Of a stretch of DNA of 10,030 nucleotides, positions 1 to 10,030 are shown in pieces (positions within the stretch are counted from its first letter, which is position 1; each line of letters opens with the position of its first letter). Source of the DNA: Planctomycetota bacterium (lineage in GTDB: Bacteria; Planctomycetota; Phycisphaerae; Sedimentisphaerales; Anaerobacaceae); the NCBI GenBank assembly GCA_023135255.1, contig JAGLTN010000549.1:1-10030 (forward strand), written 5' to 3'. The notes below the pieces were generated by a model. It did not search any database, was not told the DNA's origin, and was given only the letters and a program-made list of their open reading frames with translations. The translations under genes were made by a program, and so were the position numbers.

Positions 1-17
1 AAAGCTGGATGATTTTG

Positions 18-109
18 TACCCTTAAGGGTAGTAAATGTTCGCGAATAAAGCCGTAACTTGTTATTTTAAGTTATTTACCCGCGGATAAACGGGTGAATT
101 CAATTGGGA
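18..109 (+). repeat. Left arm of a long inverted repeat
   Basis: This 92-bp segment is the reverse complement of 4980-5072, with six mismatches (at 40, 51, 53, 58, 95, 96) and one single-base difference in a T run, about 92% identity. Weaker similarity continues inward to about position 123 (10 of 14 bases match). The outer edge is sharp: it begins with the perfect palindrome TACCCTTAAGGGTA (18-31), and outside it the two flanks do not match. Inside are CGCGAATAAA (41-50) and CGCGGATAAA (81-90), 40 bp apart, and a small hairpin-capable ACCCG/CGGGT pair (78-95). No open reading frame or transposase is present. It lies 140 bp upstream of the start at 249. Whether it is a dispersed repeat, a regulatory module or a recombination arm cannot be told from this window. 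Confidence 0.93.
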
Positions 110-164
110 ACAGTATAAAATAGTTTTGCAGAAAACATAACCAGCGGATAAACAGCTATTTTTC

Positions 165-192
165 TTGCAAAACAAGTCAGGTTAAATATACT
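165..192 (+). promoter_or_regulatory. Candidate sigma-70-type promoter for the 249-3161 operon
   Basis: A TTGCAA box (165-170) and a TATACT box (187-192) are separated by 16 bp and lie 57 bp upstream of the ATG at 249. The -10 matches consensus at five of six positions and the -35 at four of six. A third GCGGATAAAC motif (144-153), related to those in the repeat, sits just upstream. The assignment rests on box similarity only, since planctomycete promoters are poorly defined. Confidence 0.45.
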
Positions 193-248
193 TACATGCT
201 TCTAAAAATAAAGAACTGAATTTTTAAACTTATGTCGGAGCACAAACA

Positions 249-2483
249 ATGAGCTTGATGAGGTGGTTTCGTAAGAATAACAGAAAAATAATGGCTATTG
301 TTATTATTGTTATAATGGTGGGTTTTGTCGGCGGCAGTTATATCCAGCAGCTCGGCAGAAAAAGAAGCGGCATATACAAAGCTGTTGCTTACTACGGCGA
401 GGACAACAAGATAACAAATATGGACATTGCACAAGCCAGACAGCAGCTTGATATACTGAGAATCATTGGTGCAAGTTCTATGCTCAAAGGTCTTGAGGTG
501 CCTATGCTCAGGACGAGAGATGTAAAAGCTTTACTGCTTAATGAATTGTTGTTTCCGGATCGCAAAGAATCTGCCGGCATAAGTCAGCTTATCAAACAGC
601 TTGCCTCAACTCAGAATTATGCCATAAGTACTGAGCAGATAAATGATATTTATAAAAGTCCGGTTCAAAGTGAGATACTCTGGATTTTGCTCAGGGAAGA
701 AGCCAGGCAGACAGGTTTTCAGATATCAAATCAGCAATCCGGTGCTCTACTGGCAAAGATCGTTCCTCAGGTTATAGGTGCAACTTATCAGCAGCTTATC
801 GGTTCGATGGTTAGTGGGGCTGGTCGAGGCGGTCAGGGAGTTTCAGAGGATAATATTTTGTCAGCTTTTGCGGATTTCATCGCGGTATTGGAATATTCCA
901 AAGCAGCTACTTCAAATGAGAATGTTACACTGGCTCAGTTGACTCAGCAGTTAAGCTGGGAACTGGAAACTGCTATGGTAGAATCGGTAAGTTTTCCAGC
1001 TTCGGTTTTTGTTGACCAGCAGCCGGAGCCAACTGCTGATGCTATAAAAGAGCAGTTTAATAAATATAAAAATAATGCGAATGGTGATATAAGTGACGAG
1101 AATCCTTATGGCTTTGGTTATAGATTCGATGATATGGTTCAAGTCGAATATATCGCAGTTAAATTTGATGATGTTGCCAAGACGGTAAAACCTGTTGCCC
1201 AGGAAAAGGTTGAGGATTTTTATAAACTCCACAGGGAAGAATTTATCGAACAGGTTCTTTCTGACCCTAATGATCCTAATTCCCCGATGACCGACAGAAT
1301 AAAAAGCTTTGTAGAAGTATCAGATCTGATTACTGATGGTTTGCATAAAAAAGCAATCAATGGCCAGGCGGAAATAATTATTCAGGATGCAAAATCCATT
1401 ACTGAGACTGCTTTGGATGATGCTGATGTTGAAGTAGCTTCGTTAACTGATGAAGAGTTTAAAAAATTAGTCGGTGACTATTCTGTTGCGGCAAAACAGA
1501 TAGCTGAAAAATATTCTATAAAAGTTTATTCCGGCAAAACAGGATTGCTTACTGCTACCGATATTCGTCAGGATGAAAATCTCGGACAGTTAGTTATACA
1601 AACTTCTAATTACAGTGCTGTTGCTCTGAACCAGATCGTATTCGCTATCGACCAGCTCCAGTCGAGCTTGCTTAGCACGTTTGATATGGAAGCACCAAAG
1701 ATGTATCAGAATATTGGGCCTTTAAAATCAATGCCTCAGCAGGTGGGCGAACTCGGAAAGCTTATTGTTCTGACAAGGGTTGTTGATGCAAGCAAAAATG
1801 CTGTTCCTGACAGTTTAGATATGAAAGTAAGCAAGAAGACGATAGTTCTTTCTGATGAGTCGCAGGAAGCGAAAGAGTTTGTTGTAAAAGATGAAGTTGT
1901 TACTGACCTCAAGGAATTGGCAGCAATGAAAGCTGCACAGGCCCAAGCTCAGAAGTTTGTTGACTTGGCGAAAAAAGAAGACTGGGAGGCTGCTTCTAAG
2001 AGCTTTAATGAATCTCTCGGCAAGAAAAATGACGACCCTAATATGTTTGATATCAGCTATGGCAATAACCTTAGAAAACTGCCCGATACCATCATGGATG
2101 TTTACAACATTCAAAAAGCAGGTGAGCCTATAGCTTCATTTGTGATCAGAGAAAACAAAAAACTCAGCAAAAGGAGAGATATGTTCTTCTCACTAATCGG
2201 CAAAGATAAGGATGAAGCTGAGAATATGCCAGCGGTTATGGAATTGAAATCTGGCAGGGCATACCTGGCAGTTAAGAGCGTTAAGCTGAACAGGCTTGTT
2301 AATGAAGCTTTTGAAGCAAACAAGGCTTACAGGGTGTACATGCAGGATTTCATAGAGTCACAGACTCTTGCACCAGTATTCCTTAACCCTGAGAATATAC
2401 TCAAACGTATGGACTACCGAAGAGTAATAGAAGATGAAATTTCAGATCCTAACGAAACCGCTAAGTCGGGAGAAAAATCTTAA
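249..2483 (+). CDS. Membrane-anchored SurA/PpiD-like protein without a visible parvulin domain
   Basis: The 744-residue protein begins with a basic stretch (RWFRKNNRK) and one membrane helix at residues 14-32, giving a short cytoplasmic N-terminus and a large extracytoplasmic part. This is the layout of PpiD-type periplasmic chaperones. The region after the helix resembles the SurA/PpiD N-terminal fold (an ITNMDIAQARQQLD segment). Residues about 295-335 (VQVEYIAVKF followed by a helix containing EKVEDFYKLH) and the helices at about 546-588 and 685-728 also follow the PpiD pattern. I cannot find the parvulin isomerase signatures, so it may be a chaperone rather than an active prolyl isomerase. 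GGAG at 237-240 lies 8 bases before the ATG and supports this start. Its stop overlaps the next ATG (TAATG), so the two genes are probably translationally coupled. The family call is good, the exact role is inferred. Confidence 0.72.
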   Translation: MSLMRWFRKNNRKIMAIVIIVIMVGFVGGSYIQQLGRKRSGIYKAVAYYGEDNKITNMDIAQARQQLDILRIIGASSMLKGLEVPMLRTRDVKALLLNELLFPDRKESAGISQLIKQLASTQNYAISTEQINDIYKSPVQSEILWILLREEARQTGFQISNQQSGALLAKIVPQVIGATYQQLIGSMVSGAGRGGQGVSEDNILSAFADFIAVLEYSKAATSNENVTLAQLTQQLSWELETAMVESVSFPASVFVDQQPEPTADAIKEQFNKYKNNANGDISDENPYGFGYRFDDMVQVEYIAVKFDDVAKTVKPVAQEKVEDFYKLHREEFIEQVLSDPNDPNSPMTDRIKSFVEVSDLITDGLHKKAINGQAEIIIQDAKSITETALDDADVEVASLTDEEFKKLVGDYSVAAKQIAEKYSIKVYSGKTGLLTATDIRQDENLGQLVIQTSNYSAVALNQIVFAIDQLQSSLLSTFDMEAPKMYQNIGPLKSMPQQVGELGKLIVLTRVVDASKNAVPDSLDMKVSKKTIVLSDESQEAKEFVVKDEVVTDLKELAAMKAAQAQAQKFVDLAKKEDWEAASKSFNESLGKKNDDPNMFDISYGNNLRKLPDTIMDVYNIQKAGEPIASFVIRENKKLSKRRDMFFSLIGKDKDEAENMPAVMELKSGRAYLAVKSVKLNRLVNEAFEANKAYRVYMQDFIESQTLAPVFLNPENILKRMDYRRVIEDEISDPNETAKSGEKS

Positions 2484-2908
2484 TGGCTAAATCGTCTAAA
2501 GAGGCAAACTGGCCTTTTTTAATTTCCGTAGGTTTGTTAAGCTGGTTTGTTCCAGGCGGCGGCTACTTTCTGCTTAAAGAAAAAAAACGCGCCTGGATAA
2601 TTCTGATTACAATTAGCTTATTGTTTATTGCAGGTTTATACGTTGGTTCGATTGGAGTTGTTGACAAAGTTTCAATCGCAGATAAACCATGGATAATATC
2701 GAAGCTGTCATGGTATACCGCACAAATTATTGTTTCGCCGGTAGTAATGATGATAGGCAGTGTAACTGCATCAGGTCAGTATCAGGTTTACGGTAAGCCC
2801 GAAGAGATCGGTCAGATATATACCGGTATCGCAGGTCTTTTAAATTTCTTGTGCATTATAAATGCGGTTTACTTAGCTTATGTTGGCGTAGAAAGATCGG
2901 GGAAATGA
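2483..2908 (+). CDS. Small multi-pass membrane protein, DUF6677-like
   Basis: This 141-residue protein has about four hydrophobic segments: residues ~12-30, ~37-57, ~77-95 and ~115-136. The second is preceded by a positively charged KEKKRAW turn. A WFVPGGGYFLLKEKKRAW stretch near the N-terminus matches the PG-G-ylg-r-rG pattern of TM2-like and DUF6677 membrane proteins of planctomycetes. The C-terminal YTGIAGLLNFLCIINAVYLA also fits that family as I remember it, and no function is established there. Its ATG overlaps the stop of the upstream PpiD-like gene by one base. A GGGAG at 2468-2472, inside that gene, gives a usable ribosome-binding site. The tight coupling suggests that the two products act together in or at the membrane. 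No catalytic residues are recognisable. Confidence 0.72.
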   Translation: MAKSSKEANWPFLISVGLLSWFVPGGGYFLLKEKKRAWIILITISLLFIAGLYVGSIGVVDKVSIADKPWIISKLSWYTAQIIVSPVVMMIGSVTASGQYQVYGKPEEIGQIYTGIAGLLNFLCIINAVYLAYVGVERSGK

Positions 2909-2909
2909 T

Positions 2910-3161
2910 ATGCAATCGATAGCAACTTCTCTTATCGCAAGTTTTACATCACCAATGCACATTGGCACAACCGCGCAGGCATTGCTTTTTATAGTGCCTT
3001 TAATCGCAGCGATTTCGGTTGTTTATAAAGCCACCAAGCTTGAGAGCATGGCAACAAAGAATTTCATCAAGGAATCAGCTTCACTTTTCGGTTCTATCTT
3101 TGTCTTTATTTTGATAACCGCGATTGTTCTGCTTGTATTTACTTTCCTCGTTACCCAATAG
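2910..3161 (+). CDS. Small two-helix membrane protein of unknown function
   Basis: The 83-residue product has two strongly hydrophobic segments, residues ~20-40 and ~59-81. They are joined by a polar linker (YKATKLESMATKNFIKESAS), and the C-terminus is very short. The start lies one base after the stop of the preceding gene, with a GGGGA (about 2898-2902) eight bases upstream, so it is almost certainly the third gene of the same operon. I do not recognise the family. Conserved position behind a DUF6677-like protein would support a shared function in the envelope. It ends 11 bases from the converging RNase III gene, with no recognisable terminator hairpin in between. Confidence 0.75.
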   Translation: MQSIATSLIASFTSPMHIGTTAQALLFIVPLIAAISVVYKATKLESMATKNFIKESASLFGSIFVFILITAIVLLVFTFLVTQ

Positions 3162-3172
3162 GCATGTAGTTT

Positions 3173-3883
3173 TTATCCTTCTTCTGTTTCCTGCGGCAAT
3201 TCGATTACACTAAGTTCCACAAGGGAGTTAAAAGCCGCTTTTTGCTCAGCATCTTTTTTGTTGGTTCCCCAGGCACTTTTAAAATGTCTCCCGTCAACAA
3301 CTGCCTCAAGCTCAAAGCATTTATTATGGTCCGGTCCTTTTTCATCTACCAGTTCATAGACCGGCGTTACACCGAAATGGCGCTGGCTGTATTGCTGAAG
3401 AAGCGATTTATAATTGCCTTGCGATTGCTCAGCATCGACTTTTTTGAGCATAGGTTCAAATAGCCTTAATATGAAATCGTGTGCGGCATCAAAGTTGGAG
3501 TCGATAAAAACAGCTGCTATCAAAGCTTCCAGCAAACCCGCCGCCAGAGACCCCGAAAGTGACATGCTCGTAGCCATACCTTTGCCGACTTTAAGAAGCT
3601 TATGCAGAGAATTTTCCCTCATCACTTTTGCGCAGGTTCTTCTCGATACCAGCATACTTTTAATCTTAGTCAAATCACCCTCAAGATAGTTAGGGAAGCG
3701 GTCGAAAAGATTCAGGCAAATAACAAGGCCTAAAATTGAATCACCGAGGAATTCAAGCCTTTCGTTACTCATCACTCTTTCATCTGCAACCGAGGAATGT
3801 GTAAAAGCTTTGATTAATAGGTTGCGATCTTTGAATTTATAACCGATTATCTGCTCTATCTGATGCAGAACTTCTTCGTCCAT
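3173..3883 (-). CDS. rnc: Ribonuclease III with a substituted catalytic aspartate
   Basis: This double-strand-specific endoribonuclease is expected to process rRNA precursors and structured mRNAs. The 236-residue product has the RNase III signature NERLEFLGDS at residues 40-49, giving E41 and D48 (E. coli E38 and D45). EGDL at 68-71 includes the E65 equivalent. A C-terminal dsRNA-binding domain covers residues ~167-235 (YKSLLQQYSQ, then GPDHNKCFELEAVV and NKKDAEQKAA). The second metal-binding segment reads LAAGLLEALIAAVF. The glutamate equivalent to E. coli E117 is present (E119), but the D114 position is Gly116 (codon 3536-3538). I place the start at 3883, not at an upstream TTG (3976). AAGG sits eight bases before this ATG, the length then matches the family, and the extra 31 residues resemble nothing in RNase III. 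Identity is secure. Full activity is open. Confidence 0.95.
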   Translation of the reverse strand: MDEEVLHQIEQIIGYKFKDRNLLIKAFTHSSVADERVMSNERLEFLGDSILGLVICLNLFDRFPNYLEGDLTKIKSMLVSRRTCAKVMRENSLHKLLKVGKGMATSMSLSGSLAAGLLEALIAAVFIDSNFDAAHDFILRLFEPMLKKVDAEQSQGNYKSLLQQYSQRHFGVTPVYELVDEKGPDHNKCFELEAVVDGRHFKSAWGTNKKDAEQKAAFNSLVELSVIELPQETEEG

Positions 3884-3891
3884 TTTTGCTA

Positions 3892-3895
3892 CCTT
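3892..3895 (-). promoter_or_regulatory. Ribosome-binding site that fixes the RNase III start
   Basis: AAGG on the minus strand lies eight bases upstream of the ATG at 3883-3881. The longer reading would begin at a TTG (3976-3974) and add an unrelated hydrophobic segment. This site therefore favours the shorter, family-length protein. Confidence 0.6.
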
Positions 3896-4007
3896 ATCAT
3901 AACAAACTGACGAGCAGATTACGAAGACCACTATAATAAGCGATATTCGTAGCCGGCTCGAAAACCATAATCGCAATTCTACTTTGTTGTTGCGGCTTGG
4001 TCAAGTA

Positions 4008-4343
4008 TTATTTTACAAGCTGTAGTCCTGCAAGGGCTACGAACTTATCATCTACCATATCAAAAATGCTGTCTATACCGGTTACCGTGAAGATACCTTT
4101 AGTAGCAGCGGCTACATTACACAGGACCATTTTCTGGCCGCAATCGCCCAAAAGCTTTCTAAGTTTCAAAAGCTTTGAAAGACTTGAAGAAGTGATGATA
4201 TCAACCTCGGAAAAATCAAGCACGACTTCAGAATCGCCTCTTCCGCGGACGATTTCTGTTACAGCCCTCAATTCTTCACCAAGTTGCGGTTCCTGCGGCA
4301 GGTCTACAAGTACAATATTTTCTGACCAGTTCTGAATACCCAT
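4008..4343 (-). CDS. Single-domain STAS protein (anti-sigma factor antagonist-like)
   Basis: The 111-residue protein is a stand-alone STAS domain of SpoIIAA/RsbV type. The core reads EVVLDFSEVDIITSSSLSKL (residues 39-58), followed by a helix and the MVLCNVAAATKGIFTVTGI segment. In SpoIIAA the conserved DSSGL loop carries the phosphorylated serine. Here the loop is TSSSL, so Ser53 is the likely phosphosite and the usual Gly is Ser54. Such proteins normally bind an anti-sigma kinase when unphosphorylated, but no kinase or sigma factor is encoded nearby, so the partner must be elsewhere. A strong AAGGAG (4352-4357) stands eight bases before the ATG. It lies 124 bp upstream of the RNase III start on the same strand, a gap large enough for a separate promoter. 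Confidence 0.85.
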   Translation of the reverse strand: MGIQNWSENIVLVDLPQEPQLGEELRAVTEIVRGRGDSEVVLDFSEVDIITSSSLSKLLKLRKLLGDCGQKMVLCNVAAATKGIFTVTGIDSIFDMVDDKFVALAGLQLVK

Positions 4344-4413
4344 CTAAAAATCTCCTTAATACAAAAGAGTCTGTTATCAATCACGTCAGAAGCTGTATCG
4401 ACAATTCCCTGAC

Positions 4414-4433
4414 AGCAATTAACTATAATTGCT
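4414..4433. repeat. Short perfect inverted repeat between the STAS and anchored-protein genes
   Basis: The sequence is AGCAATTA, then ACTA, then TAATTGCT: two 8-bp arms around a four-base loop. It lies about 70 bp upstream of the STAS start. Neither strand has a T tract directly after it, so a classical terminator is unlikely. An operator, or chance in AT-rich DNA, are both possible. Confidence 0.4.
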
Positions 4434-4513
4434 TTATTAACCTGCTAAAAACAATTAAACCAGTCTTATATCGTAACTAAGCTACAAACACCTTTAGTTG
4501 TTCCGATAAAAAA

Positions 4514-4819
4514 TTATCTCTTGGTTTTAGGCCTACTTATGGTATCAGTGCCCAAGAAATACCCTTTGGTCGTTCTGCTGTTATCTGGAGATGATGAAAG
4601 ATTGTTATAAGACATCACCCTTGCTGCCATAGCATTTTTAGGATTGATTACATAAAACCCACCATCCTGAGTACGGATCAGACCATAGCCATCCGTAGGA
4701 AGAGCAATTCCAAACCGATCGGTATCAGCGCTTCCGGCCCCGGCGCCAGATACCATAACGATTATCGCGCCTAAAATAATTCCCACGATCAGAGTCTTAA
4801 TATCAATTGTAATTTTCAT
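4514..4819 (-). CDS. Small membrane-anchored extracytoplasmic protein, unknown function
   Basis: The 101-residue product starts with a short polar stretch and one hydrophobic helix (residues ~9-27, TLIVGIILGAIIVMVSGAGA). An Ala/Gly-rich boundary and a small outward-facing domain follow. The central segment (RFGIALPTDGYGLIRTQDGGFYVINPKNA, given here as residues 35-63) reads like two or three beta strands with a WD- or PQQ-like bY-V-D/N rhythm. I recall this layout in many small planctomycete proteins of unknown role. The C-terminus is basic (RPKTKR). An AAAGGG eight bases upstream supports the ATG at 4819. It is transcribed divergently from the methyltransferase at 5083, and the inverted-repeat arm lies between the two. 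No function is assigned. Confidence 0.7.
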   Translation of the reverse strand: MKITIDIKTLIVGIILGAIIVMVSGAGAGSADTDRFGIALPTDGYGLIRTQDGGFYVINPKNAMAARVMSYNNLSSSPDNSRTTKGYFLGTDTISRPKTKR

Positions 4820-4979
4820 TTCCGCAACCCTTTCAAATAAAAATTTTTATGTTTCGATTGTATTATCCCATTATCATTAACTAACTCAGCTGTTTTTGCA
4901 AGAGCTTTTGTTATCAGCAATAGCTGAAAATCGGCAATTACTGTTTTTGTTGCTGTGATAATCTGCTATTATGTATTGA
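4820..4979. other. Divergent intergenic stretch with small dyads, no gene
   Basis: This AT-rich stretch separates the minus-strand anchored-protein gene from the repeat arm. It holds a TCAGC/GCTGA dyad (4914-4927, four-base loop). It also holds TTGCAA at 4896-4901 and a tandem GATAAT pair on the minus strand (within about 4861-4877). These could serve the gene ending at 4514, but no pair has ideal spacing. Short matches to the left flank (cagctatt and cttgcaaaa, 153-172) hint that the repeat homology may continue inward in degraded form. Confidence 0.35.
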
Positions 4980-5072
4980 TCCCAATTGAATTTCCCCGTT
5001 TATCCGCGGGTAAATAACTTAAAAATAACAAATTACAGATTTATTCGCGGACATTTACTACCCTTAAGGGTA
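4980..5072 (-). repeat. Right arm of the long inverted repeat
   Basis: This is the 93-bp partner of 18-109 in opposite orientation. It carries the same palindrome TACCCTTAAGGGTA at its outer edge (5059-5072) and the two CGCGRATAAA motifs on the minus strand (5040-5049 and 4999-5008, 41 bp apart). Similarity fades inward to about 4966. The outer edge lies 10 bases before the methyltransferase ATG, so the palindrome falls inside that gene's probable leader and contains its only AAGGG. The two arms enclose about 4.87 kb with six apparently intact genes and no mobility gene. Confidence 0.93.
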
Positions 5073-5082
5073 TAACAGCGAT

Positions 5083-6272: not shown

Positions 6273-7802
6273 CTAAAACTTTCTGTCAAGTCTGCGGTAA
6301 CTTATTGCTTCTGCGATGTACTCAGCTGAGATATTTTCGTTGTTTTCGAGGTCTGCGATTGTTCTGGCGACTTTGCATATTTTGTCGTGTGCCCTGCCGC
6401 TTAGACCGAACTCGCTCATCGCTGATTTTAGCATCTGCTCGGCATATTCATTGAGCGGACAGAATTTTTCCACCTCTTTATGGCTCATAGCAGCGTTGGT
6501 CATAACCTTGCCGTTAGATAGTCTCCTGTTCTGTATTTGTCTGGCCAACTGAACTTGTTTTCTTATCGCAGCTGAATCGATCTGCTCTGTTTTCGAGCGA
6601 AGCTTGCCGAATGACACCGCCGGCACTTCGATATGAATATCAATTCTGTCCATCAAAGGCCCGGATATTTTCGACATGTACTTTTCGATCTGGTTCGGGC
6701 TGCACTTACACGCCCTGACATCGCTGCCATAGTAGCCGCACGGGCACGGATTCATCGCCGCTACCAGCATAAAATCCGCGGGGAATCTGGTTGTTCCCTT
6801 TGCCCGCGAGATATTAACATAATTATCCTCTAAAGGCTGACGTATCAACTCAAGCACATGCCTGGGAAACTCAGCAAACTCATCCAGGAATAATATTCCG
6901 TAATGCGCCAATGATAACTCACCGGGTCTGGGTATCGTCCCGCCTCCTACCAGTGCAGGTCCGCTCGAAGAATGATGCGGCATCCGCACAGGCCTTTTCG
7001 CAAGCAGTGCTTCCTCTTTGTCCAAAAGCCCTACCGATGAATATATCCTTGTTGTCTCCAGAGATTCCGCCAGTGACAAAGGCGGTAGTATAGTAGCAAG
7101 CCTTTGCGAAAGCATAGTCTTACCCGCTCCGGGAGGGCCGATCATTATTATATTATGCCCGCCCGCTGCCGCGATCGTCAATGCGCGTTTAACGGATTCC
7201 TGTCCCTTGACATCAGCAAAATCAACATTATAATTCGATGCGGTATTGAAAAGTTTCTCAATATCCACAACCGTAGAATCCAACTCAAGGCTGCCCTCGA
7301 ACATTGCTACAACCTGTGTCAAACTGCCCATGCCGAAAACTTCAATATTCTCTACGACAGCTGCTTCCCGGGCGTTTTCCAAAGGCACGATTATCTTTTT
7401 AAACCCATGTTTTGCCGCCGCCATTGCCATACTCAAAATGCCGTTAACCGCCCGAACCCTGCCATCCAAAGCCAGCTCACCAACGATGACATATTCTTTC
7501 AAGGCCGGATTAGAAAAAACATTCTGACCGGCAAGCATTCCTAAAGCAATAGGCAAATCAAACGCAGGGCCTGCTTTCTTAACATCCGCCGGTGCAAGAT
7601 TAACCAGCGACTGCTTCTTAGGATATGTATATCCCGAATTAAGAACAGCACTCCTGACCCGTTCGATCGATTCCTTGACCGCGGCATCCGGCAAGCCGAC
7701 AATAATAGATTTGTCGAACCCACCTCGACCAACATCAACCTCAACCTCACAAATTATCGCCTCTATACCATCAAGCGTGACACTATGCAATTTAGCGAGC
7801 AT
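6273..7802 (-). CDS. yifB: Mg-chelatase-like AAA+ ATPase, ComM/YifB family
   Basis: The 509-residue protein has the three-part YifB architecture. An N-terminal Lon-protease-like ChlI fold comes first (from MLAKLHSVTLDGIEA, with VNLAPADVKKAGPAFDLPIA). Next is an AAA+ core with Walker A GPPGAGKT (222-229) and Walker B ILFLDE (D307, E308). A CPCGYYG...CKC cysteine cluster (probably zinc-binding) follows the core, and a C-terminal Mg-chelatase helical domain ends in YRRLDRKF. In naturally transformable bacteria ComM is a ring helicase that promotes branch migration of incoming DNA. In others the role is unclear. I start it at 7802: GAGG lies seven bases upstream, and MLAK is the usual N-terminus. 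A start at 7838 would lie inside the -10 box. All motifs are intact. Confidence 0.95.
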   Translation of the reverse strand: MLAKLHSVTLDGIEAIICEVEVDVGRGGFDKSIIVGLPDAAVKESIERVRSAVLNSGYTYPKKQSLVNLAPADVKKAGPAFDLPIALGMLAGQNVFSNPALKEYVIVGELALDGRVRAVNGILSMAMAAAKHGFKKIIVPLENAREAAVVENIEVFGMGSLTQVVAMFEGSLELDSTVVDIEKLFNTASNYNVDFADVKGQESVKRALTIAAAGGHNIIMIGPPGAGKTMLSQRLATILPPLSLAESLETTRIYSSVGLLDKEEALLAKRPVRMPHHSSSGPALVGGGTIPRPGELSLAHYGILFLDEFAEFPRHVLELIRQPLEDNYVNISRAKGTTRFPADFMLVAAMNPCPCGYYGSDVRACKCSPNQIEKYMSKISGPLMDRIDIHIEVPAVSFGKLRSKTEQIDSAAIRKQVQLARQIQNRRLSNGKVMTNAAMSHKEVEKFCPLNEYAEQMLKSAMSEFGLSGRAHDKICKVARTIADLENNENISAEYIAEAISYRRLDRKF

Positions 7803-7809
7803 TAAAATT

Positions 7810-7813
7810 CCTC
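7810..7813 (-). promoter_or_regulatory. Ribosome-binding site that fixes the yifB start
   Basis: GAGG on the minus strand (part of GAGAGG, 7810-7815) is seven bases upstream of the ATG at 7802. It selects this start over the ATG-containing extension up to 7838, which would add 12 residues not seen in the family. Confidence 0.7.
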
Positions 7814-7836
7814 TCATAAACATTATCAGAACCCGC

Positions 7837-7864
7837 ATTATAGTCTTTTATTTTTTTTAATCAA
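7837..7864 (-). promoter_or_regulatory. Sigma-70-type promoter for yifB
   Basis: On the minus strand there is TTGATT (7864-7859), a 16-bp A-rich spacer and a perfect TATAAT (7842-7837). This predicts a transcript start near 7830 and a leader of about 28 bases. It is the best-looking promoter in the window. Confidence 0.65.
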
Positions 7865-7957: not shown

Positions 7958-10030
7958 ATGACAAAAAGAACAATTATAATATTGTCAGCTGTCTTTCTAA
8001 CCCTGTGTTGCGTACAGCTGTCCGCCGAAACCATCGAAGATGTCCCATACCTGCAGGAAATTTCTATGAAGATTGCCTCTGCGAAGCCCATTATATCAGT
8101 CGCGCTTTATAAAGGACAACTTTACGCCGCCACAAAAACATCTCTCAAAACAATTGATGGTGAAAAATTAACAAACGCACCATGTCCTGCAAAAAATATT
8201 CGCCTTATAAAAACATTAAAAAATACTCTCTGGCTGATAAGTTCAGACAGTTTATATAAATTTGACGGTCAGTGGGAAAAAATCGCCGACGGAGATTTCA
8301 GCGATCTCTGTCTCCATCTCGGTAACGTCACTGTCGCATCCAAAAGATGCTTATACCATATCGAAGATGGTAAGCTCATCGAAATAGAAAAAAGCAAAGG
8401 CCCGGGAGAAGATATTCTCAATATCGATTCATATAGCGAAACCTTGTATGTCGCATCAAAAACCAAACTCGCATTGTTCGATTGTAATAGTTATGATGGT
8501 GTAAACGTTATTGACTGGGGGCGATTGCCATTCAGCGATATCCGCGATATTCACAGACAGCAAGGCAGATTATATGTCGCTACCGGCAAAGGATTAGCTC
8601 TGCTTAGAGGCATGTCTATGGTGACGATCACCGGCAGAGAGGGCTTGTGTTATGAAGATATTACCTGCCTGGCAGATGGTTTCGAAAAAGACTTGTGGAT
8701 AGGAACCACCGGAGGAGCGGTTCGTTATGTCAACGGCGAGTATCAATATTTCGCTGCGGATCGTTGGCTGTTGGATAACAATGTAAATAATATAGCGGTA
8801 GGTGATAAAGCTGTTTACATCGCAACCAACAAAGGACTTGGAATTATTAAATACCAGCCTTATACACTTCGCAAAAAAGCTGATTACTATGAAAAATATC
8901 TCGACGTCTGGGGACACAAAAGGCTTGGCTTTGTGCATAAGCTCGAATGGGACGACAAACTAAACCAGTGGGTCAGAGAAGTCAGTGACAATGATGGCGG
9001 ACGAAGCAGCCATTACATGAGTGCAATGTGTTTTAAATACGCAGTCACCGGCGACGAGAGAGCCCGCGCAGAGGCGGTAAACAGTTTCAAAAGCCTTAAA
9101 TGGTGCGAGGAGATATGCCCCATCGAAGGATTCCCCGCAAGGGCGATCTGGGCCAATGGTGAAACAGGACACAAAGCAAAAGGCGGCTCAGGCGGATACG
9201 ATGCGGAATGGCACAACACAGCAGATGGTAAATGGCAGTGGAAAGCTGACACCAGTAGTGACGAATCTGATGCACACTATTATGCCGCTTCAATTTTTTA
9301 CGACCTTGTCGCTGATGAAAAAGAAAAAGCACTTGCTGTCGAACATGTAGAAAAAATGAGCGATCATATAATCGATAATGGTTGGGTACTTAGAGACGTC
9401 GATGGCAAACCGACACGCTGGGGACGCTGGGATAAAAAATATTTCAAAACTGTCGAAGGTTTCATGGCCAGGGGCCTTAATGGTATGTCCGCACTAAGCT
9501 ATATGAAAACAACATATCAGCTCACTAAAAATAAAAAATACCAAAAAGCCTATCAGCAGCTGATCAAAGATGATTACCTCAATAATGTTTTGCGTCAAAA
9601 GCACACATCTCCGCCTGACTATATTTTCCACAGCGATGACCGTCTGGCATTTTTTGTTTACTACCCATTATTAAAATACGAGACAGACCCCGTACTGAGA
9701 AGCCTCTATTTCAGAAGTCTCGAAAGAAGCTTTGAAATCGAAAGGATCGAACACATCCCCTGGTTTAATTTCATCTACGGCACACTGACAGGTAACGATT
9801 GCGAAGCTGACAAAGCAGTCGAGCATCTTCGTCAATGGCCTTTGGATTTAATCGACTACCGATTCAAAAATTCGATTCGCGCAGACTTATACCCCCGGAA
9901 GGATTATGTGCCTTATTCAGGTGGAATAAAAGCGATGTCACCTCGTGAGATAGGTCCGATCCGCTGGTCAGGCAACATGCTGAAACTTGATGGCGGCAAC
10001 GGCAGAGCTATAACCGAACCTGCATGTTGG
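7958..10030 (+). CDS. Secreted beta-propeller protein with a C-terminal helical domain (3' end outside the window)
   Basis: The frame stays open to the last base, giving 691 visible residues and no stop. A signal peptide is clear: a KR N-terminus, a hydrophobic core (IIILSAVFLTLCCV) and probable cleavage after QLSA at residue ~24. Residues ~30-300 contain repeated blades of the two-component-regulator propeller type (Reg_prop), best seen in DLWIGTTGGAVRYVNGEY (245-262) and VYIATNKGLGIIKY (285-298). No histidine kinase part is visible. From ~310 the protein changes to a helix-rich region with conserved-looking NDGGRSSHYMSAM (from 345), RWGRWDKKYF and HSDDRLAFFVYYP (from 558). This resembles an (alpha/alpha) toroid of glycan-active enzymes, but I see no definite catalytic set. 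AAGGG (7944-7948) precedes the ATG by nine bases. A role in extracellular polymer binding or breakdown is inference. Confidence 0.75.
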   Translation, partial: MTKRTIIILSAVFLTLCCVQLSAETIEDVPYLQEISMKIASAKPIISVALYKGQLYAATKTSLKTIDGEKLTNAPCPAKNIRLIKTLKNTLWLISSDSLYKFDGQWEKIADGDFSDLCLHLGNVTVASKRCLYHIEDGKLIEIEKSKGPGEDILNIDSYSETLYVASKTKLALFDCNSYDGVNVIDWGRLPFSDIRDIHRQQGRLYVATGKGLALLRGMSMVTITGREGLCYEDITCLADGFEKDLWIGTTGGAVRYVNGEYQYFAADRWLLDNNVNNIAVGDKAVYIATNKGLGIIKYQPYTLRKKADYYEKYLDVWGHKRLGFVHKLEWDDKLNQWVREVSDNDGGRSSHYMSAMCFKYAVTGDERARAEAVNSFKSLKWCEEICPIEGFPARAIWANGETGHKAKGGSGGYDAEWHNTADGKWQWKADTSSDESDAHYYAASIFYDLVADEKEKALAVEHVEKMSDHIIDNGWVLRDVDGKPTRWGRWDKKYFKTVEGFMARGLNGMSALSYMKTTYQLTKNKKYQKAYQQLIKDDYLNNVLRQKHTSPPDYIFHSDDRLAFFVYYPLLKYETDPVLRSLYFRSLERSFEIERIEHIPWFNFIYGTLTGNDCEADKAVEHLRQWPLDLIDYRFKNSIRADLYPRKDYVPYSGGIKAMSPREIGPIRWSGNMLKLDGGNGRAITEPACW

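Follow-up and report, generated by a model that had tools for sequence, protein, structure and literature searches.

The window analysed here is a stretch of 10,030 nucleotides (positions 1 to 10,030 of contig JAGLTN010000549.1, assembly GCA_023135255.1) from a planctomycete of the order Sedimentisphaerales, and it contains two inverted copies of a short repeat that is the subject of this report. Six ORFs (open reading frames) of 83–744 amino acids lie between the copies, and rlmL follows the second. Copy 1 has its palindrome end toward the contig edge and its right end toward the gene at 249; the contig begins 17 nt ahead of it, so its left neighbor gene is outside the sequence. Copy 2 is located between a leftwards-facing ORF (4514–4819) and rlmL. 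Pfam searches of eight ORFs (the six enclosed, rlmL and 6273–7838, with ORF 7958–10030 left out) identified DUF6677, RNase III and STAS domains among the enclosed ORFs, three of the six having no Pfam match. An earlier sequence-only reading of the window, made without database searches, had described six enclosed genes with no transposase or integrase between the arms; the Pfam search of the eight ORFs likewise gave neither.

The inverted pair is real: positions 15–123 align with the reverse complement of 4966–5075 over 110 nt (E 1.9e-39) at 89.1% identity, with 11 mismatches and one gap, the longest perfectly matching stretch being 30 nt. The same pair is recovered as two ungapped blocks of 59 nt (90%) and 54 nt (91%). 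The outer edges had been placed correctly at 18 and 5072, where they coincide with the outer end of a palindrome, whereas the inner edges, placed at 109 and 4980, lie a few bases further in (Table 1). The body limits of both copies were set by reading the window sequence against the family consensus.

Many dispersed copies, and not just this pair, are found when the source genome (2.85 Mb in 644 contigs, 83% complete) is searched with positions 14–125. There are at least 41 matches of ≥75 nt with 83–100% identity, both window copies included, and this is a lower bound because 40 of 158 candidates were scored. In view of these copies, the inverted pair was rejected as a unit in its own right. 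The earlier suggestion that the arms serve to invert the 4.9-kb block by recombination draws on their inverted arrangement and the 30-nt exact run; nevertheless, five other copies in the genome are closer to copy 1 than its partner is, exact identity within the pair does not exceed 30 nt, and every inverted pair that the 41 or more copies can form is equally suited, making this role very improbable.

The copies are mostly intergenic. Among 42 with flanks, 36 overlap no ORF and six overlap an ORF end by 3–61 nt, using crude ORF calls of at least 70 amino acids. The neighboring genes have no uniform direction relative to the repeat: for 23 copies with both neighbors scored, both are reverse in nine, both are forward in eight, and the two mixed arrangements occur three times each. 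Several source-genome copies are compound, with a repeated left part (C640), a repeated right part (C160, C424 and C167) or the whole unit doubled (C320), and the left part is also present twice in record LJTR01000301. Forms of the A-A-B, A-B-B or whole-unit tandem type occur at source-genome loci L009, L010, L019, L027, L030 and L069 as well as at L303, with the joins at TA. The BOX elements of pneumococcus are similarly modular, with repeated internal modules to which the A-A-B and A-B-B forms can be compared in arrangement, their own modules being boxA, boxB and boxC.

The repeat is not confined to one genome. A sequence-only model built from 51 copies has matches (E ≤1e-3) in 61 of the order's 161 genomes, the source genome included, with carriers in families f1, f2, f5 and f7, a patchy distribution inside genera, and copy numbers from one to more than 150 (genome G083 has 153 matches in several length classes). 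Of 397 sampled genomes of the class, 36 have matches: 34 from the order and two from outside it. At most ~24 (order) and ~9 (class) candidates were scored per genome under stricter filters, so that carriers and copy numbers in both surveys are lower bounds. One genome of a family outside the order (G398) has 19 weak matches (E ≤0.01) with the same layout and the left palindrome TACCC-ATC-GGGTA. The left-end pattern is also present in at least 112 stretches of named public genomes, and the 80 titles among the matches listed all carry planctomycete names, including Sedimentisphaerales, Phycisphaerae and Anaerohalosphaeraceae. It has no exact match in viral contigs, and copy 1 gave no blastn match to plasmid and phage collections. 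Within the accessible portions of the open-licence literature on repeats and miniature inverted-repeat transposable elements (MITEs) of planctomycetes, Phycisphaerae and Sedimentisphaerales, no description of this family was found, and the sole paper matching the palindrome letters concerns hepatitis E virus. An origin of the repeat in faulty assembly or binning might be suspected from the ten of 41 source-genome copies that have a contig end within 130 nt; these more probably mean that the repeat breaks this assembly, and with the family present in public metagenome-assembled genomes from several differently named projects, as seen in the 80 listed titles, an artefact is hardly credible.

Comparison of two sister species (G071 and G072) provides filled and empty sites. 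Orthologous copies were identified in G072 for five of the 17 matches in G071, and 16 of the 19 non-shared copies of the two genomes (three partial G071 copies were left out) were examined by searching the sister genome with the joined flanks of each copy. Eight have a continuous empty counterpart, one has a split counterpart, and seven have none, one of which (L087) gave two short partial matches. At two junctions (L080/L150 and L082/L156) the copy has TA on each side and the empty site a single TA; at a third (L092/L154) the copy has TA on the left and TC on the right, and the empty site once more has one TA. The split counterpart is that of the G071 copy L095, interrupted in G072 contig C48 by ~124 nt of other sequence. 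The sisters also have in common an inverted pair of copies ~3.15 kb apart (G071 C57, G072 C98).

The TA dinucleotide recurs across the family. Of 201 copies with both ends anchored (matches close to the edge of a locus, those containing N, repeated ones and those lacking a recognized end were excluded), TA is present to the left of 161, to the right of 173 and on both sides of 144. In the remaining 57 the two flanks agree in just two, which is what decayed TA would give, and the pattern is read as a TA duplication that decays over time; a three-base duplication is unsupported (six observed versus 3.5 in shuffles). Flank G+C is ~15% at the fifth base out on both sides and 37–40% at the sixth, so that the low stretch is limited to ~5 nt. 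No target duplication had been visible from the window alone. The family does have one, of just TA, and each window copy has seemingly lost one side of it, the flanks TG/TA of copy 1 and TA/CA of copy 2 being those that a decayed TA duplication would leave.

The most probable interpretation (about 0.8) is that the two arms arose independently, by insertion of the same small, non-autonomous mobile repeat of ~98–105 bp, which is dispersed in Sedimentisphaerales-type planctomycetes. This corresponds to the first of the explanations offered by the sequence-only reading, a dispersed MITE-like unit, and is carried by the own-genome copies, the matches through the order and the empty sites in a sister species. 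The repeat would be moved in trans by a putative TA-specific DDE-type transposase, IS630/Tc1-like in behavior, which would recognize its unequal ends and generate the TA duplication on insertion.

Table 1. Positions of the two repeat copies in the window, with their palindromes and flanking dinucleotides.
Feature	Position	Strand	Basis
Repeat copy 1 (98 nt; body TACCC...CAGTA)	18..115	+	sequence, own-genome matches, alignments
Copy 1 left-end palindrome TACCCTTAAGGGTA	18..31		sequence, family conservation
Copy 1 left flank TG	16..17		probable target TA with one change
Copy 1 right flank TA	116..117		probable target duplication
Repeat copy 2 (99 nt)	4974..5072	-	89% to copy 1; repeat-model match E 8e-32
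Copy 2 left-end palindrome, stopping 10 nt short of the rlmL start codon (ORF start 5083)	5059..5072		sequence
Copy 2 palindrome-side flank TA	5073..5074		probable target duplication
Copy 2 right-end-side flank, minus-strand CA	4972..4973		probable TA with one change

The consensus of the repeat passes from TACCCTTNAGGGTA through a block of the TAAATGTCCGCGAATAAA type and a more variable middle to TTACCCGCGGATAAACGG and AATTCAATTGGGATCAGTA, with TA as the usual flank. The left end consists of a conserved palindrome of ~14 bp followed by a CCGCG-type block, and the right end has a CGG..AAATT-type block and closes with CAGTATA, CACTATA or similar forms. Among 250 distinct full copies, a set that includes 32 loci (L340–L371) beyond the 80 titled ones, length ranges from 89 to 151 nt with a mode of 104, and all five paired arm positions of the palindrome, in its best placement near the start, are kept in 232. 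Variants of the palindrome are compensated (TACGC/GCGTA, TACCA/TGGTA, TATCC/GGATA and CACCC/GGGTG), the first of these being the form in genome G141 (TACGC..GCGTA). Consensus RNA folding of the 51-copy set returned the palindrome plus a short CCGCG/CGCGG pairing and nothing more; a separate folding run with the larger copy collection returned no structure, and a free covariation scan of 93 representatives was dominated by subfamily differences. An RNA leader or riboswitch was rejected in view of the mixed gene orientation, a weak fold (z −1.27 and −0.90) and the lack of any Rfam match in the window at the gathering threshold.

Some copies carry additional sequence. In genome G019 a hairpin insert, TATCCGCCACGGCGGATA, lies mid-repeat in three of four aligned copies (L070–L072). 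The longer forms in G083 contain nested GC-rich inserts (L143–L148, with similar ones in L260, L287 and L332). In the fetched G083 loci, which overlap and were picked around copies, CCGCCGCGGCGG occurs 15 times, every one near the palindrome of a copy, and ACCTGTGGCACAAG occurs 18 times near a copy palindrome and three times away from one.

The repeat most likely represents a new family working in the manner of the RUP, ERIC and Correia elements; it lacks the terminal inverted repeats of a MITE in the strict sense, its ends matching in TAC alone. It shares with small mobile intergenic repeats a length below 200 bp, many dispersed copies, filled and empty sites, and a TA target duplication (or possibly an element-borne TA). 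RUP is 107 bp long, with 108 intergenic copies and insertion sites with TA, and is thus alike in size, placement and target; it has 9-bp terminal repeats, and its ends resemble those of IS630-Spn1, the proposed mobilizer (PMC2229807), whereas the planctomycete ends share TAC only and no partner insertion sequence (IS) was found. RUP is the sole small repeat named there as having an IS with similar ends (PMC2229807). The planctomycete repeat has the TA target of RUP-like elements (derived from IS630/Tc1-mariner), but not a DDE_3 transposase that goes with its carriers. ERIC elements (also IRU or RU-1) are likewise small, mostly between genes and TA-ended, with copy numbers that vary from 30 to 711 by genome (PMC10969869); they differ in being 127 bp long, enterobacterial, and bounded by 7-bp terminal repeats (PMC2229807). 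Correia elements (NEMIS) have TA ends and forms of ~107 and 155 bp that differ by an internal insert, comparable to the longer insert-bearing forms of G083, but their 24-bp terminal inverted repeats (PMC2229807) have no equivalent in the planctomycete repeat.

Several observations weigh against a mobile repeat of this kind. Only two of the three exact junctions keep TA at both sides, and five of the eight empty sites (L083, L089, L105, L094 and L100) show at least two base differences close to the junction. Two TAs around a copy and one in the empty site would also suit insertion without duplication by an element carrying a TA of its own, and the empty sites may reflect either insertion or precise loss. 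The exact terminal inverted repeat common to both ends is the TAC already mentioned. Complementarity between the subterminal blocks exceeds that of shuffled arms (4.97 versus 3.22), yet arms swapped between genomes score the same as native ones (4.96); no co-evolution or co-variation of these blocks is therefore found, and a co-varying stem is not supported. IS630-type DDE_3 domains (PF13358), detected in six genomes of an initial 24-genome search and in 67 of the 161 genomes of the order, are not associated with the repeat (24 of 61 carriers versus 43 of 100 non-carriers; Fisher p 0.74), and neither are Y1 domains (PF01797), present in 133 of the 161 (52 of 61 versus 81 of 100; p 0.53), each comparison using one Pfam model and some genomes being incomplete. 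With no such association, an IS630 partner was rejected. Four carriers (G034, G089, G114 and G128, some incomplete) match neither model, and no repeat was found at 40 transposase loci (10 DDE_3 and 30 Y1). One single-contig genome (G118) has 22 PF13358 matches, mostly in two equal-score groups, and is not among the 61 carriers.

It also weighs against this reading that a scan of 80 among the 112 left-end loci revealed no autonomous copy. The scanned loci contain 87 full copies and seven exact left ends without a full match; by eye, these seven are truncations, a tandem copy, and copies that have inserts or an altered right end, and the search went no further outward from them. A candidate autonomous copy on G071 contig C44 was rejected: the intervening ORFs are not transposase-like by eye, and one end belongs to a short repeat form (L108) from which the segment separating the two CCGCG blocks has apparently been lost.

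Two other modes of movement can be considered. The repeat could be old, with unequal ends (a palindrome at one, nothing constant at the other), a length of ~104 bp maintained across several families and in at least one family beyond the order, continued movement into TA sites and two modules that can rearrange (A-A-B, A-B-B). It would then never have derived from a resident IS, and a recombinase of the host or of unknown type, recognizing ends in a new way, would mobilize it; this is unlikely. Similarly improbable is movement by a Y1 (HUH) transposase in the manner of IS200/IS605 and of repetitive extragenic palindromic (REP) sequences with their RAYT transposases, in which single strands folded at the palindrome are mobilized without target duplication and the TA on one side is borne by the element. 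The retention of the left palindrome through compensatory changes and the prevalence of PF01797 in the order are in keeping with this, and REP families are reported in Planctomycetes (PMC3733652). The repeat is REP-like in being dispersed, palindromic and extragenic. However, REPs are 20–40 bp long and sorted by GTAG or CGTC tags (PMC3733652), and a TA-flanked unit of ~100 bp with the palindrome TACCC..GGGTA has neither the size nor the tag. The A/T-rich target is roughly symmetric about TA, a better fit to a double-strand cut, no constant right-end hairpin is seen by eye, and nine of the 61 carriers, some of them incomplete, lack a PF01797 match. In addition to the 30 Y1 loci without the repeat, 20 further Y1 regions include two with a clear copy, one of these with an additional weak partial match (E 0.2), and none of these copies brackets the Y1 gene; no bracketed Y1 gene was thus seen in the 50 Y1 regions covered, out of many more Y1 matches in the order, which differs from REP/RAYT systems and, together with the lack of a PF01797 association, led to the rejection of a Y1 partner.

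The copy beside rlmL bears on whether the repeat serves its neighbors. In 60 genomes of the family there are 22 RlmL matches, and the repeat is present in the fetched flanks only at the window's own; flanks of the other 21 extend to 1.5 kb at most and are shorter at contig ends, one (L391) lacks the upstream side, and two (L392 and L393) are merely 36% identical. Nine of the 21, L391 included, are in carrier genomes. Because no copy is found at these 21 loci, the best reading of copy 2 is an insertion next to rlmL that is specific to this lineage. With the mixed gene orientation of the 23 scored copies, this absence also leaves without support the duplicated regulatory module that the earlier reading had entertained. 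Nineteen RlmL loci have no other window protein in their flanks at E 1e-4; the relatives do not share the block, and these loci are therefore neutral on its inversion.

Another possibility is that selection maintains the repeat as a functional binding site, for instance of a regulatory or nucleoid protein, with its presence and absence reflecting ordinary turnover. Conservation of length and key blocks across families and in the genome outside the order would suit such a site, as would the mostly intergenic placement, but the restriction to 61 of 161 genomes and the patchiness within genera (some misses being likely), the range of copy number, the precise absence at matching sites and the lack of a copy beside RlmL in nine other carrier genomes all speak against it, and it is distinctly unlikely. 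Local consequences of individual insertions are another matter. Since the copy 2 palindrome ends so close ahead of the rlmL start codon, an effect on translation or transcription of rlmL is possible, and the end of copy 1, ~130 nt before the gene at 249, may similarly influence expression there.

As the arms are two of many copies of an apparently mobile repeat, the six genes they enclose are probably bystanders and form no special unit. The repeat accounts for a pattern that recurs among the draft genomes of this order of planctomycetes, few of which have been cultured; caution is warranted there since such repeats break assemblies. It is a widespread test case of a mobile repeat without a visible mobilizer, and it could act as a marker for strain comparison.

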